A stretch of 64,000 nucleotides of DNA, from the NCBI RefSeq assembly GCF_009258045.1, contig NZ_CP041166.1, positions 310,001 through 374,000 of the forward strand. Direction: 5' to 3'. The DNA is from Sulfurimonas xiamenensis. GTDB taxonomy: Bacteria > Campylobacterota > Campylobacteria > Campylobacterales > Sulfurimonadaceae. The notes under the pieces are model-generated. The model had not been told where the DNA came from. It saw nothing but the letters and a program-made list of their open reading frames with translations, and ran no database searches. Positions 48,557 to 61,903 of this stretch are shown one piece after another (within the stretch, counting starts at the first letter, position 1; each line of letters starts with the position of its first letter). Made by a program: the position numbers and the translations under genes.

Positions 48557-49537
48557 ATGTATTTAAAGGATTTAAAGTTCTCTTTATGGGCAGATTTTAT
48601 CGAAAGAGACTATTTAGATAATGAATTTAAGGAGTTAGTAGAGGAGGGGATTGTTAATGGAGCAACTTCAAATCCTGCAATATTTAAAAATGCAATACTA
48701 AATTCAAATGCATATAAGGATCAGTTATCCAGACTCTCCTCTTTAACTCCTAAAGAGAAGTATGAAGCTGTTGCTATTTATGATATACAAAAAGCGGCAG
48801 ATATATTAAAACCGCTTTATGAAAGGGGTGATGACGGATATGTTAGCATAGAAGTTGATCCGTATCTTTGTGATGATGCTAATGCTACAATAAAAGAGGG
48901 GGAGCGACTTTTTAGACAAATAGATCGTAATAATGTTATGATAAAAGTTCCTGCTACAGAGGCTGGATATATAGCTATGAGAGAACTTTGCAGCCAGGGA
49001 ATTCCTGTAAATGCGACACTTATATTTAAAAAAGAGCAGGCTCTATCATGTGCGAATGCTTTTAGAGAGGGTCTGGCAAAAAGCGAAACAGAGGTTGATA
49101 CCGTTATAAGTGTTTTTGTAAGCAGAATTGACAGAGCTTTGGATCAAGAGCTAACTAAGCATGGGGTAGCTGCTTCTTTAAGCGGAATATACAATAGTGC
49201 GGATATTTATGCAGAAGTTGAAAAGATGGGAGTTAAGGGGTGCAGAGTGCTTTTTGCAAGTACCGGAGTAAAAGATGATTCTTTGGCGCCTCACTACTAT
49301 ATAGAGAAACTTTTGGCGTACAATAGTGTAAATACAGCACCGGTAGAGACTATAAAAGCTTTTCATTTAAATGGAAATAAGGAGAGCGCTTTACCAATTT
49401 CACCTCAAATAATAGGGGAACATTTTGAAAAAATCAAAGAAATAGGCATAGATTTTAATACTGTGTTAGATAAACAGATAGATGATGGATTAAAATCTTT
49501 CAAAGATGCATTTAAAGATATATTGGAGTCGTTATGA
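48557..49537 (+). CDS. tal: Transaldolase
   Basis: Pentose-phosphate enzyme that moves a dihydroxyacetone unit by a Schiff-base lysine. 326 residues. The start has FSLWADFIERDYLDNEF, then GIVNGATSNPAIFK, VSIEVDPYLCDDAN, and the active-site strand NVMIKVPATEAG (Lys near 135). Later, NATLIFKKEQAL and FVSRIDRALD occur. Normal length. The stop overlaps pilT by four bases (ATGA). Confidence 0.94.
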   Translation: MYLKDLKFSLWADFIERDYLDNEFKELVEEGIVNGATSNPAIFKNAILNSNAYKDQLSRLSSLTPKEKYEAVAIYDIQKAADILKPLYERGDDGYVSIEVDPYLCDDANATIKEGERLFRQIDRNNVMIKVPATEAGYIAMRELCSQGIPVNATLIFKKEQALSCANAFREGLAKSETEVDTVISVFVSRIDRALDQELTKHGVAASLSGIYNSADIYAEVEKMGVKGCRVLFASTGVKDDSLAPHYYIEKLLAYNSVNTAPVETIKAFHLNGNKESALPISPQIIGEHFEKIKEIGIDFNTVLDKQIDDGLKSFKDAFKDILESL

Positions 49538-50730
49538 GTGGTAATAAAAATGAAGTAGATATAAGTCAGTTGACATTTGATCAATTAAAAAAGATTCGAG
49601 AATATCTTAAAAAATTGATTGAAAGCGGCGGCAGTGATTTACATGTAAAATCGAATGGTTTAATAAGAGCTAGAATTAATGGAACAATTGTTCCATTTTC
49701 TGAGAATAAATTTTCTTATGAAGATGCTATGATTCTCTCTAAAGAGATTCTTAGAGGAAGATATGCGGAGCTTATTGAAAATAAAGAAGTTGACTTGGTC
49801 TATCAGTTTGATGAATCTAACCGTTTTCGTGTAAATATTTTCTTTCAGATGGATGGTCCTTCATTTGTATTTCGTGTTATTCCTATGCAGATACCGACAA
49901 TTGAGCAGATGAAATATCCTGAAGCCATAAAAAATTTTACAAAAGAAGAGCGCGGACTGGTTCTAGTTACCGGAACTACAGGGAGTGGTAAATCAACAAC
50001 ACTCGCAGCAATGGTAAATGAAATAAATACAACATATAAAAAACATATTATAACCATTGAAGATCCTATTGAATTTGTGCATAAAGATAGAGGATGTATC
50101 ATAAATCAACGCTCGTTAGGACAAGATACTCTCTCTTTTGATAGAGCTCTAAGAGCTGCTCTTCGTGAAGATCCTGATATTATACTTGTAGGTGAGATGA
50201 GAGACCGTGAAACTATAGAGTTGGCTCTTCATGCTGCAGATACGGGACATTTGGTTTTTTCAACATTGCATACACTCGATGCGAAGGAGACAATTAATCG
50301 AATTATAGGTATGTTTCCTTATGAAGAACAAAATCGTGTTCGCCTCTCTCTTGCAGGAGTTTTAAAAGGAGTTATCTCTCAAAGGTTGATCCCTACAAAA
50401 GAAAATAAACGAATAGCGGCAATGGAGATACTTGTAAAAACTCCTACTATTGAGAAACTTATTTTAGAAAATCGTGATTATGAGATTCGTGATACCATAG
50501 AAAAAGGACGAGAATATTATAAATCACAAAGTTTTGATCAGCATATTTTTGATATATATAATGAAGGCATTATTACAAAAGAAAAAGCAAAAGAGTACGC
50601 AACAAGCGCTTCTGATTTAGAGATGAAAATGAGCGGGTTTAACAGCGGTAAAGCTTCTGATCTTATTAATAAATCTGAAAAAAATAGTAAAAATGAAGCA
50701 GTAGATGAGGATGTATTTGATTTAAAATAA
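49534..50730 (+). CDS. pilT: PilT-type secretion/retraction ATPase
   Basis: Hexameric ATPase that retracts type IV pili. 398 residues. An N-terminal PAS-like domain (about 30-110; GGSDLHVKSNGLIRARING). Walker A GTTGSGKSTTLAA at about 147-159, the aspartate box IEDPIEFVHKDRGCI, Walker B PDIILVGEMRDRE, and the His box ADTGHLVFSTLHTLDA. The AIRNLIRE-type C-terminal motif is replaced by IEKLILENRDYEIRD, as in the PilT/PilU group. No other pilus genes are adjacent, so assignment to PilT versus PilU is uncertain. Confidence 0.9.
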   Translation: MSGNKNEVDISQLTFDQLKKIREYLKKLIESGGSDLHVKSNGLIRARINGTIVPFSENKFSYEDAMILSKEILRGRYAELIENKEVDLVYQFDESNRFRVNIFFQMDGPSFVFRVIPMQIPTIEQMKYPEAIKNFTKEERGLVLVTGTTGSGKSTTLAAMVNEINTTYKKHIITIEDPIEFVHKDRGCIINQRSLGQDTLSFDRALRAALREDPDIILVGEMRDRETIELALHAADTGHLVFSTLHTLDAKETINRIIGMFPYEEQNRVRLSLAGVLKGVISQRLIPTKENKRIAAMEILVKTPTIEKLILENRDYEIRDTIEKGREYYKSQSFDQHIFDIYNEGIITKEKAKEYATSASDLEMKMSGFNSGKASDLINKSEKNSKNEAVDEDVFDLK

Positions 50731-55160: not shown

Positions 55161-56239
55161 AAGATTGTAGAGTTGCAATTGATGCTATTGATGATGAGGT
55201 GCTAAAACTTCTTAATAAAAGAATGGAAATTGTTAAGCGGGTGGGCGAAATCAAAAAAGATAGTGATAGCGCAATATATAGACCGGAGAGAGAAAAAGCA
55301 ATTATTCAAAGATTGACTCAAAATAGTATGGATCAGCAGGGGCTCTTAAATAAAAATGCCATCGAAGCTATATTTTTAGAAATTTTTGCAGTTTCAAGAA
55401 ACTTGGAGCTTCCGGAGCGTATAGCTTATCTCGGTCCTGAGGGAAGTTTTACTCATCAAGCGGCAGAGAGTCGTTTTGGGGCGATGAGCGACTACCTTTC
55501 TTTAAGCTCTATTCACTCTGTTTTTAAAACACTTGAAGCAAAAAGAGCTAAATTTGGAATTGTTCCGATAGAAAACTCAAGAGACGGAGTAGTAGGTGAA
55601 ACACTTGATCTTTTGGCAAAAAGTTCTGTAAAAATTGTGGCAGAACTATATATGCCTATTCATATGTCATTTGTTACAAAAGCAAAGAAAATATCGCAAA
55701 TAACTAAGATTTATTCAAAAGACAAAGGTTTTGGGCAGTGTAAAGAGTTTCTTCAGGAGTATAACCTTGTTAATGTGGAACAAATTCCGGTTGAGTCGAC
55801 TGCAAAAGCAGCAATTTTGGCTTCAAAAGATCCAAATGCTGCTGCTCTTTGTAGTCATATTGCAGCAAAATTGTATCGTGTGCCGACAATGTTTGACCGC
55901 ATCGAAGATGATATAGGCTCTTTGACAAGATTTATAATTCTTAGTGATTTTAAAAATGCTAAGAGTCAAGATGACAAAACTTCTATTTTAGTGAGACTCA
56001 AAGACTCTGTGAAAGCGGGATCGCTTGTTCATTTTTTACAAGATTTTAATGAACAAAATATAAATCTTTCAAAAATAGAGTCACGACCTTCAAAAAACAA
56101 GGGCGGATTTGATTACTGGTTTTTTATAGATTTTTACGGGCATATTGATGATGAAAAGTTTCAAAAGGTACTACAAAAACATAAAGGGGAAGTAACTTGG
56201 TTAGGAAGTTATGTAAAAGGTGAAGAGATTGAAGTTTAA
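55148..56239 (+). CDS. pheA: Chorismate mutase/prephenate dehydratase
   Basis: Bifunctional P-protein for phenylalanine. 363 residues. AroQ-type chorismate mutase at 1-90 ([22 protein letters not shown]). Prephenate dehydratase at about 95-275 with [34 protein letters not shown] and the triplet [12 protein letters not shown] regulatory domain at about 280-355, where phenylalanine binds ([11 protein letters not shown]). It overlaps the HAD gene by 13 bases and hisC by about 11 to 20. Confidence 0.95.
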
Positions 56240-57323
56240 TAAAAATTTAGAAAATATAAAAACATATGAGACTGGAAAACCGATAGAGTTGGTTGTAAGA
56301 GAGTTTGGTATAGAGCCAAAAGATATTATAAAGCTTGCATCAAATGAGAACCCTTACGGAACTTCTCCTAAAGCTGTGGCTGCTGTTAGTGATATTGTGA
56401 CTAAAATGGCTCTTTATCCTGATGATTCTATGATAAAGCTGAAAAATGGATTAAGTAAAAGATTTGATGTTGAAAATGAAAATATAATTATTGGTTCAGG
56501 CAGTGATCAGGTTATAGAGTTTTTAATTCATGCAAAAGCCTCTTCATCTTCAAAAATCTTGATGAACAGTATAACATTTGCGATGTATGAAATATATGCT
56601 AAACATGTAGGAGCAAATATTATTAAAACGGCTTCACAAGAGCATGATCTTGATGAATTTTATGCACTTTACAAAGAAGAGAAACCAGAAATCATATTTA
56701 TATGTACGCCAAATAATCCAACAGGGGATGCGCTTGATGCTCAAAAAATATATGATTTTTTAAAGAAGATAGACAGTGATACACTTGTGGTTATAGACGG
56801 TGCTTATATGGAGTATGCTATTGCTAAAGATAGTTCAAAAGAGATAGCTGTAAAAAAACTTATAGAAGAGTTTGATAATGTTGTTTATCTTGGTACATTT
56901 TCTAAAGCTTACGGGCTTGGCGGGATGAGAGTCGGATATGGCGTGGCTGATCACAATATAATAAAAGAGCTATACAAACTTAGACCTCCTTTTAATATTA
57001 CCACTTTGTCTCTTGAAGCTGCAAGTGTAGCGCTTAGTGATGAAGAGTTTGTAAAAAAGAGTGTAACTCTTAATCTTGAGCAGATGAAACGCTACGAACA
57101 ATTTGCAAAAGAGCAAAAAATAGATATAATAAATAGTTATACTAATTTTATTACATTTTGTTTAAATTCAAATCAAGATTCTACAAAGATATCAAATTCT
57201 CTTTTGAAAAAAGGTATGATAGTAAGAGATTTGAGCAGTTATAATATGAATGCAATTAGAGTTACAATAGGGACAGAAGAGCAAAATAGTCGTTTTTTTG
57301 AATTAGTAAAACAATTTTTATAA
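56229..57323 (+). CDS. hisC: Histidinol-phosphate aminotransferase
   Basis: PLP aminotransferase of histidine synthesis. About 364 residues. [14 protein letters not shown] at the N-terminus, [13 protein letters not shown], and the PLP lysine in [18 protein letters not shown]. Ends with the [16 protein letters not shown] tail. I prefer TTG 56229 over GTG 56220 because the resulting [16 protein letters not shown] matches the usual N-terminus; either overlaps pheA. Placed as in C. jejuni, before fliF. Confidence 0.94.
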
Positions 57324-57341
57324 TTTAAAAATAGGAAATTG

Positions 57342-58703
57342 ATGAATTCTAAAGTACTTTTTTCGCAACTTTTTGTTCTAAAAAATAGGCTAAGTAAAAA
57401 ACAAAAGCTTATTATTGGTTCTGCTGTTGCGGCTATTATCATATTTTTAATTTTTTTGAGTGTTTATACGGCTGAAAAAAATATAAATAGTAGATATGAA
57501 GTGCTTTTTGGCTCTTTGGCTTCAGCAGATGCTGCCAAAGTTATCGAAGAGTTAGAAAAAAAAAGTATCTCTTATGAATTGCTGGATAATAATATTATAA
57601 AAATTCCTAGAAATATTTTATATAAAGAGCGCATTGCAATTGCTTCTTTGGGAATTGTAAAAAAAGGTTCAGTAAGTTTAAGTGCAGAAGATTTTAAGCA
57701 AAATGAAAAATATTTTCAAGCACTAGAAGATGAACTCTCCCGCACGATTAATGCACTTTCAGCGGTTGAAAATGTCAGTGTTCGTTTGACTTTAGAAAAA
57801 AATGCAACAGCTTTGGTTCTGCTTCAATTGACCAAAGGAAGAGAGCTCTCTTTAAAACAAATAAGAGGGATTGAAAATCTTGTTGCAGCAGCGGTACCAA
57901 ACCTTTCTCCATCGGATGTTGTTCTTATAGATAATAATACAGAAATTATCGCTAGTATAGATGAGATGGAGCAGTTGACTGCTCTCTCAATTATGCAGCA
58001 AAATTTTAAAGCAAATGAAGAGAAAAAAAAAGAGAGAAAAATTATAGAGGCTATTTCTCCTTATATCGGTAAAGAGAAAAAAATTGCCGCACAGGTTAAC
58101 ATCGATTTTGATTTTTCTGTTAAAGAACCTCTTTCTGATACATATAATTCCGAGTTTGCACAAATTAAAAAGATTATGGTCACCGTTATTGTGGATGGAA
58201 ATTATAAATATAAATCTGATGCAGATGGCAATCCTACAAATGAGCTGGAGTATGAGCCGTTATCAGAGAATGATTTAAAAACTTTATCTTTATTGGTTAG
58301 CCGTTTAATCGGCATAAACAAGGAGAGAGGTGACCAGATAAGTGTTAAAAATGCGCAGTTTAAAATAGCTGAGGTTAATGCACTAAAAAATAAAACAGAT
58401 GTGTCGTTTTTTGAATTTTTGAAATATTTATTTGTATTTATATTTCTTTTTATTGTCTATATAAAATTGATTGCTCCATTTGCAAAAAAAGCATTTAAAG
58501 TTTCTAAAAAAGAGCAGAAATCAAGTGAAATATTTTTAGATTCTGATGTTGAAAAAAATTTTTATAAAGATGAGGATAAATATACTATTTCTCTTGATAA
58601 AATGAAAATTATGATTGACAAATCACCCGAAGCTGCCGCAAATATTTTTCAAGCTTTAATTGCAGAAGATGCTCAAGAAGCTATAATGCACAGGAGAAGA
58701 TAG
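57342..58703 (+). CDS. fliF: Shortened flagellar MS-ring protein FliF
   Basis: 453 residues; FliF is normally about 540-570. TM1 at 23-43, TM2 at about 356-378. Ring-building motifs 1 and 2 are recognisable (YEVLFGSLASADAAKVIEEL, ELSRTINALSAVENVSVRLT). The RBM2 stretch that normally reads PKxSVF..PPxASV is cut to LEKNATALVLLQL, about eight residues short. Between YNS (270) and EFAQIKKIMVTVIVDG the usual long insert of about 70 residues, which builds the periplasmic beta-collar, is gone. The C-terminal FliG-binding helix is present (MIDKSPEAAANIFQALI). The frame is intact throughout, so this is a deletion, not a frameshift. See findings. Confidence 0.88.
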   Translation: MNSKVLFSQLFVLKNRLSKKQKLIIGSAVAAIIIFLIFLSVYTAEKNINSRYEVLFGSLASADAAKVIEELEKKSISYELLDNNIIKIPRNILYKERIAIASLGIVKKGSVSLSAEDFKQNEKYFQALEDELSRTINALSAVENVSVRLTLEKNATALVLLQLTKGRELSLKQIRGIENLVAAAVPNLSPSDVVLIDNNTEIIASIDEMEQLTALSIMQQNFKANEEKKKERKIIEAISPYIGKEKKIAAQVNIDFDFSVKEPLSDTYNSEFAQIKKIMVTVIVDGNYKYKSDADGNPTNELEYEPLSENDLKTLSLLVSRLIGINKERGDQISVKNAQFKIAEVNALKNKTDVSFFEFLKYLFVFIFLFIVYIKLIAPFAKKAFKVSKKEQKSSEIFLDSDVEKNFYKDEDKYTISLDKMKIMIDKSPEAAANIFQALIAEDAQEAIMHRRR

Positions 58704-59732
58704 ATGAATCTAAATCCCGCACAGCAAGCAAAATTTGATAAAATGAGTAGAGCGGAAAAAATAGCAGTTCTATTAATGCTTATGGGTGAAGATACAACAG
58801 CTTCTGTATTTTCAAATATGAGTGTTGATGCAATAACAGAAGTTTCAAAATATATAGCTAGCAACAAAAGTGTAGAAAAAGCTGTTGCGGTAGCTGTGCT
58901 TAAAGAATTTTATGCAATTTTTCAATCGCAGCAGTTTATTATCGGCAGAGGTATAAAATATACCAAAGAGCTTCTTTACAGAGCACTTGATGTTGAAGAT
59001 GCAGATAAGATTTTAGAAAAACTCTCAAAAACATTACAAGAGGATCAATACTTTTCATATTTGTCAAAAATCAAGCCTCAGCAGCTCTCAAAGCTTCTTG
59101 TTGATGAACATCCTCAAACAGCAGCGCTTATTTTAGCTCACATGGATGCAGTTGAAGCAGCCGATACATTGCACTATTTTTCAGATGATTTAAGAAGTGA
59201 GGTTTTGATAAGAATTGCTAAACTGGGGGATATCTCCTCATCTGTAATAAAAAGAGTTTCCGATGTTCTTAAATCCAAACTGGAACTCTCTTCATCAAAA
59301 GAGTTTAAAATCGGCGGTCTTCGTGCAGTTGCTGCTATTTTAAACTCTTTTGATGAAAAAATTTCCAAAGAGACATTTGTTAAAATATGTGAGCAGGATA
59401 AAGAGATATCAACTCTTATTAAAGATATGATGTTTTCTTTTGAAGATATAAAAACACTTGAAAAAAAAGCAATTATAGAGATACTTAACAGTGTAGATAA
59501 GCATGATTTAATGCTTGCGTTAAAAAGTGCCTCTCCAGAGCTTAGAGATGCTTTTTTTAGTGTTATGAGTGAAAAAGGCAAAAAAGTTTTTGAAGAAGAG
59601 GGTCAGTTTTTGGGTGTAGTAAAGATGAGAGATATTAAAGATGCGCAAAGAAGAGTCATTAAGAGAGTTGAAAGCCTTGTTGAAGATGAAATAATTCAAT
59701 TAGATTTAGGAAAAAAAGAGGCGGTAAAGTAG
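58704..59732 (+). CDS. fliG: Flagellar switch protein FliG
   Basis: 342 residues, starting at the base after the fliF stop. The three FliG regions are all present: an N-terminal FliF-binding domain (KMSRAEKIAVLLMLMGED), the middle armadillo domain with EHPQ at 135-138 and GGLRAVAAILN, and the C-terminal torque domain (LEKKAIIEILNSVDKHDLMLALKSASPELRD). The conserved MSxRA charged loop reads MSEKGKK, so an arginine thought to matter for motor torque is not conserved. No stop or frameshift. Confidence 0.92.
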   Translation: MNLNPAQQAKFDKMSRAEKIAVLLMLMGEDTTASVFSNMSVDAITEVSKYIASNKSVEKAVAVAVLKEFYAIFQSQQFIIGRGIKYTKELLYRALDVEDADKILEKLSKTLQEDQYFSYLSKIKPQQLSKLLVDEHPQTAALILAHMDAVEAADTLHYFSDDLRSEVLIRIAKLGDISSSVIKRVSDVLKSKLELSSSKEFKIGGLRAVAAILNSFDEKISKETFVKICEQDKEISTLIKDMMFSFEDIKTLEKKAIIEILNSVDKHDLMLALKSASPELRDAFFSVMSEKGKKVFEEEGQFLGVVKMRDIKDAQRRVIKRVESLVEDEIIQLDLGKKEAVK

Positions 59733-59733
59733 T

Positions 59734-60066
59734 TTGTCAAGTATAATAAGCAGTGAAAATATTAAAAAACACAATATTGATAAGTATGAATTTAAGATAT
59801 TAAATATTAATTTAGAATCCAAAAAAAAGGTTAAAGAATCTTTAGCAAATCAAGAAAAAAATATTGTTAAAAATCAGAAACATATACAAAAGAGAGAAAC
59901 TGATATAATAACATCTGATATTATAAAGCTTCAAATTAAATTGCAGAAAATGAAACATAAGCATAAAAAAAAGCTTAAAAAAATAAAAGAGAAATCTTAT
60001 GCCAAAGGCATTAAAGATGGTGAAGCAAAAGCTCTTAGACAATATAAAAAAAGCAATATTAAGTGA
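59734..60066 (+). CDS. fliH: Truncated FliH-like protein
   Basis: 110 residues at the fliH position (C. jejuni order: fliG, fliH, dxs), TTG start. The first residues SSIISSENIKKHNIDKYEFKILN resemble the FliH N-terminus (quoted here in part), followed by a lysine-rich coiled coil and AKGIKDGEAKALRQ, the A/GxxxG repeat style of FliH. It then stops. Full FliH is about 250-280 residues, with a C-terminal globular domain that binds FliI. That domain is absent and no reading frame continues in the 13 bases before dxs. Confidence 0.6.
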   Translation: MSSIISSENIKKHNIDKYEFKILNINLESKKKVKESLANQEKNIVKNQKHIQKRETDIITSDIIKLQIKLQKMKHKHKKKLKKIKEKSYAKGIKDGEAKALRQYKKSNIK

Positions 60067-60079
60067 GTAAAATAGATTT

Positions 60080-61903
60080 ATGAATATAAAAACAAGCACA
60101 ATTAAAGAATTAGAAAATCTTTGTAAAGAGATACGAGAAGAAATTTTAAGAGTGGTCAGTAAAAATGGCGGACATTTAAGTTCTACTTTGGGAGCTACTG
60201 AGCTTATAGTAGCTATGCATAAGGTATTTGACAGTAAAAAAGATCCTTTTATTTTTGATGTATCGCACCAGTCTTACGCACATAAACTTTTAACAGGAAG
60301 ATGGAAAGAGTTTGATACACTAAGGCAGTTTAACGGTCTATCTGGCTATACAAAACCAAGTGAGAGTGAACATGACTACTTTGTGGCGGGACACAGCTCT
60401 ACTTCAATATCTTTGGGTGTTGGTGCTGCTAAAGCAATTGCTCTTAAAGGTGAGCAAAATGAAAGAGTTCCTGTAGTTATGATTGGCGATGGGTCTATGA
60501 CTGCAGGGATGGTTTATGAAGCTCTTAATGAACTAGGCGATAGAAAATATCCGATGATTATTATACTTAATGATAACGAGATGAGCATATCTAAGCCCAT
60601 TGGAGCACTAAGCAGAATGCTTAGTTCAGCCATGGCATCACCATTTTATCAAAACTTTAAAAAGCATACTGAAAATTTTGTAGATAATTTTGGAGAGAGT
60701 GCGCACTATATTGCAAAAAGAATGGAAGAGTCTCTAAAGCTTATAACTCCGGGTATTATGTTTGAAGAGATGGGAATTGATTATATAGGGCCCATTGACG
60801 GACATAATCTTCCTTCGCTTATAGAGATACTTCAAAAAGCTAAAGAGCTTAAAAAACCTGTTATTGTTCATGCTCAGACGATTAAAGGAAAAGGTTATGA
60901 AAAGGCTGAGGGACAGGAAGAAAAATGGCATGGAGTTGGACCTTTTGATATAGATAGTGGAAATTCATCTAACAAGAGCACGCTTAAGAGTGCAACTAAA
61001 ATATATGCAGAAGCTCTTTTGCACTTGTGTGAGGAGAATGAAAAAATTGTTGGTGCAACGGCTGCTATGCCTAGTGGAACGGGTTTAAGCGAATTAATTC
61101 AAAAGTATCCAAATAGATTTTGGGATGTGGCAATTGCAGAACAGCATGCTGTTACTTCAATGGCGGCTTTAGCAAAAGAGGGATTTAAACCATTTTGTAC
61201 AATCTACTCTACATTTTTACAACGAGGGTATGATCAAATAATACATGATACATGCCTAATGGATCTGCCGGTTGTTTTTGCACTTGATCGTGCCGGAATA
61301 GTCGGCGAAGATGGCGAAACGCATCAAGGAGTTTTTGATATCAGCTTTTTAAGAGCTATACCAAATATGACTCTTTTTGCTCCTAGAGATGAAAAATCTT
61401 TTCATCAAGCTCTTGCTTTTGCAGCCAGTTATCAGCACACATGTTCTCTGCGTTATCCGCGAGGCTCATTTATAGAGACTGATCTGCCGGAATCTCAGCC
61501 CTTTGAATTGGCAAAATCACAACTGCTTCGTTCAAATAGCAGTGATATTTTGTTTATAGGCTATGGAAATGGTGTCGGTCGTGCTTATCAGACAGCTGAG
61601 TTATTAAATGATGAAGTTAGCATTTTAGATTTGCGATTTGTAAAGCCTCTTGATAATGAAATGCTTCGTGAAATGGCTGCAAAACATAAAAAGTGGTTCG
61701 TATTTAGTGACAGCGCAAAGATGGGCGGAGTCGGCAGTGCTATTTTAGAGTTTTTGTCAAAAGAGAAGATTTTAGATGTAGAAGTGGTGAGTTTTGAGTA
61801 TGAAGATAATTTTATTACTCATGGAAATACGAAACAGGTGGAGGAGTCTTTGGGACTTTTGCCTTTACAGTTGGCAAAAAAGGTTATGGAGTTAGTTGAA
61901 TAA
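60080..61903 (+). CDS. dxs: 1-deoxy-D-xylulose-5-phosphate synthase
   Basis: TPP enzyme joining pyruvate and glyceraldehyde phosphate, first step of the non-mevalonate isoprenoid pathway and of thiamine and pyridoxal synthesis. 607 residues. HLSSTLGATELIVAMHKVFD, the TPP motif GDGSMTAGMVYEALNELG, MTIKGKGYE-type IKGKGYEKAEG, and the transketolase core DRAGIVGEDGETHQGVFDI with LRYPRGSF. Downstream partner ispE is at 24697. The 3' end overlaps convergent pgeF by 20 bases. Confidence 0.97.
   Translation: MNIKTSTIKELENLCKEIREEILRVVSKNGGHLSSTLGATELIVAMHKVFDSKKDPFIFDVSHQSYAHKLLTGRWKEFDTLRQFNGLSGYTKPSESEHDYFVAGHSSTSISLGVGAAKAIALKGEQNERVPVVMIGDGSMTAGMVYEALNELGDRKYPMIIILNDNEMSISKPIGALSRMLSSAMASPFYQNFKKHTENFVDNFGESAHYIAKRMEESLKLITPGIMFEEMGIDYIGPIDGHNLPSLIEILQKAKELKKPVIVHAQTIKGKGYEKAEGQEEKWHGVGPFDIDSGNSSNKSTLKSATKIYAEALLHLCEENEKIVGATAAMPSGTGLSELIQKYPNRFWDVAIAEQHAVTSMAALAKEGFKPFCTIYSTFLQRGYDQIIHDTCLMDLPVVFALDRAGIVGEDGETHQGVFDISFLRAIPNMTLFAPRDEKSFHQALAFAASYQHTCSLRYPRGSFIETDLPESQPFELAKSQLLRSNSSDILFIGYGNGVGRAYQTAELLNDEVSILDLRFVKPLDNEMLREMAAKHKKWFVFSDSAKMGGVGSAILEFLSKEKILDVEVVSFEYEDNFITHGNTKQVEESLGLLPLQLAKKVMELVE

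Follow-up and report, generated by a model that had tools for sequence, protein, structure and literature searches.

The window analysed here is the whole stretch of 64,000 nucleotides at positions 310001-374000 of a complete, one-contig genome from the genus Sulfurimonas (G000; 1,916,242 bp). It contains genes for a flagellar MS-ring protein and a switch protein in the conserved gene order lysA-HAD-pheA-hisC-fliF-fliG-fliH-dxs. The features, in window coordinates, are as follows.

56220..57323, + strand: hisC, the conserved upstream neighbour by gene order, which also served as a control gene (dN/dS 0.07)
57342..58703, + strand: fliF, encoding a collarless MS-ring protein of 453 aa; start ATG at 57342, alternative start TTG at 57339
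58145..58160, + strand: the junction at which the beta-collar, an RBM3 insert of ~67 residues, is missing, so that SDTYN runs directly into SEFAQ (alignment with flagellated relatives)
58704..59732, + strand: fliG, 342 aa, with N, M, and C domains and the EHPQT motif (Pfam and alignment)
59734..60066, + strand: fliH stump, N-terminal part only, 110 aa (alignment with relatives)
60080..61903, + strand: dxs, the conserved downstream neighbour by gene order

A second, full-length fliF was sought across the genome, and none exists there by family search: the 453-aa protein is the sole YscJ/FliF match. It scores 208.4 bits against a TIGR00206 cut-off of 129.75, both its YscJ_FliF and its YscJ_FliF_C domains exceed the Pfam cut-offs, and its open reading frame (ORF) has no stop codon or frameshift. 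A sequence-only reading of this locus had recognized the short length and the loss of the collar, both of which hold, but it had counted two internal deletions; alignment with FliF proteins from flagellated Sulfurimonas (566-571 aa) reveals five missing in-frame segments. Two of these, of 8 aa and 9 aa, lie around RBM1-2/RBM2 and correspond to GFELFDKQ and to a conserved loop, TLFVEKK. The largest, about 67 aa, is the beta-collar, which sits between the two halves of RBM3. The cytoplasmic tail is shorter by 23 aa, and a further 10 aa are missing ahead of TM2.

RBM3 itself, which had been taken as lost, is retained, as evidenced by residues 214-342 of an AlphaFold model, which match the RBM3 domain of the Salmonella S-ring with the collar absent (8wjr_A; Z 14.4, 110 residues, 1.6 A). 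The model as a whole (mean pLDDT 68) comprises RBM1, RBM2, RBM3, and two long membrane helices, and its RBM1-2 portion matches Salmonella MS-ring chain 8wkq_UI (Z 19.4, 145 residues, 2.8 A). Both membrane helices and the FliG-binding helix are preserved, as had been proposed: the 36-37 residue FliG-binding tail of Helicobacter pylori (5WUJ chain A) can be aligned within FliF, weakly when taken alone (E 0.86), and the tail falls in line with the FliG-binding tail of relatives. In published structures (PMC11481574), FliE and the rod contact the S-ring and collar, and FliP/FliQ contact the inner RBM2 ring, which makes at least the collar a rod-facing part.

FliG keeps its three domains, in agreement with the initial reading, and FliG_N, FliG_M, and FliG_C each exceed their Pfam cut-offs. 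The charged torque-helix positions of FliG_C, by comparison with E. coli numbering, are mostly retained in the alignment, with R changed to K at one. The fliH stump covers the N-terminal ~110 of ~264 residues and includes the conserved DKYxFKxL N-terminus; the C-terminal half is gone.

Gene content elsewhere was assessed by one targeted family search per component, plus selected genome stretches, a scope that covers the MS-ring and C-ring proteins, FlhG, FlhA, FlhF, FliA, MotA, rod and hook proteins, flagellin/FlgL, and MinC. Family searches placed the following genes outside the window, in genome coordinates.

597811-598686: flhG, encoding a MinD-like ATPase
598844-599866: fliM, 340 aa
599859-600719: fliY, 286 aa
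905961-906287, - strand: fliN, 108 aa

Together with FliG, these make the C-ring set complete and of the Campylobacterota type (FliG, FliM, FliY, and FliN). The locus had been proposed as a minimal FliF-FliG system, a description that no longer applies because the complete C-ring and FlhG are retained, with FliM, FliY, FliN, and FlhG encoded at two other loci. By contrast, the filament and export genes tested are all absent, as the first reading had anticipated. There is no PF00771 match for FlhA in the complete genome (FlhA is present in 98 of 121 genomes of the family) and no FHIPEP (FlhA/SctV) export gate of the injectisome type; family searches found no rod or hook proteins, versus seven in the relative G001, and no flagellin/FlgL, versus two in G001. 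FliA was not found by family search, with which the operon comparison agrees, and the family search for FlhF returned matches of the FtsY/Ffh type only. For MotA, the search of the genome found only ExbB/TolQ-sized proteins (152, 153, and 189 aa), whereas G001 carries a 254-aa MotA. MinC was not found in this genome, nor in nine other family members.

In relatives, the operon with flhG, fliM, and fliY reads folK-flhF-flhG-hyp-fliA-fliM-fliY-(LOG)-mnmA. Of 21 flagellated genomes examined, 20 carry it intact, and the exception, G093, lacks a match for folK alone. Here the order is folK-flhG-fliM-fliY-LOG-mnmA, and flhF, hyp, and fliA are gone. Directly upstream of flhG, 23 codons from the end of flhF survive (L046:12741-12809), and flhF was therefore once present in the lineage and later deleted. 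Operon linkage was considered as the cause of retention and rejected, since flhF, hyp, and fliA were lost from between retained genes.

The sequence of FlhG is altered as well. An N-terminal FlhG helix with a DQAxxLR motif stimulates FlhF (review PMC12826062). All 21 aligned relatives have an [HN]QAxxL-type sequence at this enhancer helix (HQAxxLExLV), whereas the helix here reads HQVQKEEESV, in which the glutamine is retained and the A and L positions are lost, a change that fits expectation because FlhF is absent. The KGGVGKS motif and the C-terminal amphipathic membrane helix of FlhG are retained. FliM is merely 59% identical to its relatives, with LSQEEIDALL intact and GGKG (the GGxG joint) retained; in other bacteria, the EIDAL segment is a binding site for FlhG.

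Selection was measured with a two-ratio codon model that compared the lineage's own branch with relatives, using up to 16 taxa; earlier 8-taxon runs agree. The lineage is sister to the pair G079 and G479, with support of 1.0 for that pair and 0.99 for the trio. Own-branch dN/dS values, each followed by the value in relatives, are 0.37 versus 0.056 for FliF, 0.16 versus 0.038 for FliG, 0.26 versus 0.022 for FliM, 0.19 versus 0.052 for FliY, 0.07 versus 0.029 for FliN, and 0.06 versus 0.026 for FlhG; dN/dS = 1 is rejected for each of the six (LR 20.4-77.4), with the qualification that a branch neutral over part of its length could yield intermediate values. The controls HisC, HAD, and FolK do not differ in dN/dS from the background. 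FliH is the exception, with values indistinguishable from 1 (0.89 with 8 taxa, LR 0.0; 0.47 with 16 taxa, LR 1.0). Even 0.1 neutral substitutions per site would predict stop codons in each of three genes, about 7 for fliF, 5.6 for fliG, and 4.9 for fliM, and none is observed. Because dN/dS is below 1 and the stop codons predicted for neutral decay are absent, FliF, FliG, FliM, FliY, FliN, and FlhG remain genuinely constrained, in a relaxed or shifted manner. The idea that the in-frame reduction of FliF reflects selection rather than decay is borne out by these values, which for fliF and fliG are well below 1, and by the undisrupted reading frame.

FliF was found in 127 of 135 genomes of the genus and in all 79 of good quality. 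Among the complete genus genes listed, the collarless form occurs only here, and the others are mostly 566-585 aa; a flagellated relative with a short FliF was sought among the 135 genomes, and there is none. A scan of the genome collection with the short FliF as sole query found no relatives. More broadly, FliF is absent from 17 of 121 family genomes and 67 of 397 order genomes, including several aflagellate lineages. Lineages of the order that are aflagellate and without any FliF include genera g7 and g10, family f5, and others; MinC was not found in the members of g7 and g10 tested, which also have no ring.

A second collarless FliF is encoded by a genome of another genus (G045; 99% complete), in which a 515-aa fusion joins it to the C-terminal FliG domain at the hisC-dxs site. 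The two relevant features of that genome are as follows.

L053:3374-4921, - strand: in-frame FliF-FliG_C fusion, contig 3
L054:6716-7882: flhF, in its usual operon

Family searches found no FlhA, FliM/N domain proteins, rod, or flagellin in G045, and flhG, fliM, and fliY are missing from its operon, in which FlhF is retained. Because G045, a member of another genus, has its own collarless FliF, the collar has been lost at least twice. The LOG-family gene beside fliY, present in both reduced genomes, was considered as a special feature and set aside, as it also occurs in most flagellated relatives.

We propose, with a probability of roughly 0.55, that the flagellum-free MS/C-ring has been kept because it provides a platform at the pole from which FlhG governs placement of the division site. 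After loss of the flagellum, a collarless FliF MS-ring carrying a FliG-FliM-FliY-FliN C-ring would have been kept together with FlhG. Once neither rod nor export gate was left to accommodate, FliF would have dropped the collar and those RBM2 loops facing them, and FlhG, released from FlhF, would have lost much of its FlhF-activating helix while its ATPase and membrane-binding parts stayed. The ring, at the cell pole, might then let FlhG build up there, and polar FlhG would block Z-ring formation, such that division takes place at mid-cell without a Min system. Gene content, gene order, intact reading frames, and purifying selection are established from the sequences, and from these we infer that the ring forms, sits at the pole, and acts in division; the flagellar ring probably survives as a guide for cell division. 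That it amounts to a stand-alone division-site system of MS-ring, C-ring, and FlhG, in which the base has outlived the flagellum because it marks the poles and holds the divisome off from them, is a proposition to which we give about even odds.

The precedent comes from Campylobacter jejuni, which has no Min system. Deletion of fliF, fliG, fliM, fliN, or fliY there yields ~12% minicells, versus 1.3% in the wild type, and deletion of flhG yields 27%, while fliH and fliI deletions yield none (PMC6946799, PMC3228812). Polar FlhG in C. jejuni requires the C-ring proteins (PMC6946799, PMC3228812). FliG was judged dispensable in the 2011 paper (PMC3228812) and was found to be required in the 2020 paper (PMC6946799). 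The set retained here consists of the MS-ring, C-ring, and FlhG genes with a minicell phenotype, and fliH, which has no such phenotype, is the decaying one. Among 19 components tested, 7 are minicell genes, and all six retained genes belong to these 7; the chance probability is 2.6e-4 in a calculation that ignores the physical linkage of ring parts to one another. The division-site reading is favoured because the retained set matches the minicell list and fliH alone looks relaxed.

Several observations count against this reading. Several aflagellate lineages of the family and order have no FliF, so division does not require the ring in general. FlhF is absent, and loss of FlhF in C. jejuni also gives minicells, for which extra FlhG compensates (PMC3228812). 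G045 retained FlhF rather than FlhG. Also, a pure scaffold would not need the torque-helix charges that FliG mostly retains.

The same retention and selection data would be seen if the ring and FlhG formed a polar platform for a task other than division, for example the positioning of type IV pili, of chemoreceptors, or of a signalling protein, which we regard as rather unlikely. FliM retains the EIDAL motif, a binding site for CheY as well, and FlhG of Bacillus subtilis binds two partners simultaneously, a C-ring protein and GpsB, a cell-cycle protein (PMC12327844). Pili are plausible because a PilT-like twitching ATPase is encoded at 49534-50730 in the window. Nevertheless, in the stretches examined the retained genes showed no association with genes for pili or chemotaxis, and the C. 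jejuni minicell gene set matches the retained set more exactly. As a separate point, the PilT-like ATPase suggests that type IV pili may move this organism in place of flagella.

Incidental retention, in which the flagellum was lost recently and the genes have yet to decay, would account for the faster evolution of all six genes than in relatives, the flhF trace that still precedes flhG, the location of fliF-fliG among housekeeping genes, and the relaxed fliH stump in the same operon. We nonetheless judge it improbable, since six long ORFs at three separate loci persist without a stop or frameshift, each has dN/dS below 1, and the expected stop codons (about 7 in fliF, 5-6 in fliG) are missing; the removal of flhF, hyp, and fliA between retained genes leaves no protection by linkage.

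A rotary function, which the sequence-only reading had entertained, is very unlikely because MotA is absent. A filament-less motor in which ExbB/TolQ-type stators substitute for MotA would explain the charged positions of FliG_C and could draw on the ExbB/TolQ-sized proteins in the genome; however, proteins of this size also occur, with their own partners, in flagellated relatives, and there is no rod to transmit torque. Finally, a role for the collarless ring in secretion, as a component of a minimal type III system, is barely credible: FliF is a YscJ-family ring protein, but the genome has no FHIPEP protein, the C-terminal half of FliH is gone, and what FliF has lost are the collar and RBM2 loops, which face the rod and gate.

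The apparatus resembles the Salmonella and Vibrio MS-ring/C-ring in its RBM1-RBM3 domains, two membrane helices, FliG-binding tail, FliG EHPQT, and FliM GGxG, and it differs from them in having no beta-collar, shorter RBM2 loops, and no rod, FlhA, filament, or MotA. A natural collarless FliF offers a test of whether RBM2/RBM3 alone suffice for MS-ring formation. As in C. jejuni division control (PMC3228812, PMC6946799), FlhG, FliF, FliG, FliM, FliY, and FliN are present and Min is absent, as judged by MinC. Unlike in C. jejuni, where there is a working flagellum with FlhF, both are gone here, FliF is collarless, and the putative function is transferred by analogy. Studies of division control by the flagellar base in C. 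jejuni have been confined to cells in which that base builds a flagellum as well.

A recent survey reported that 11% of non-motile species have at least one of FliG/M/N and no filament protein, and it suggested an unknown alternative function (ISME J 2025, PMC12199754). Relative to that survey, the present case is one genome, with a complete ring set, an ATPase, evidence of selection, and a specific functional hypothesis. The G045 fusion shares with it the collarless FliF, the hisC-dxs site, and the absence of FlhA, rod, and flagellin from the genome, yet there FliG is a C-terminal domain fused to FliF, FliM, FliY, FliN, and the operon's FlhG are absent, and FlhF is retained. Open frames of 917 and 919 aa reported at fliF in G479 and G468, respectively, suggested FliF-FliG fusions, but both loci carry separate FliF and FliG ORFs. 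Another genome, from a different family (G292, family f6; 95% complete), has two weak FliF matches, the best at 3e-20, and may encode a split or reduced FliF.
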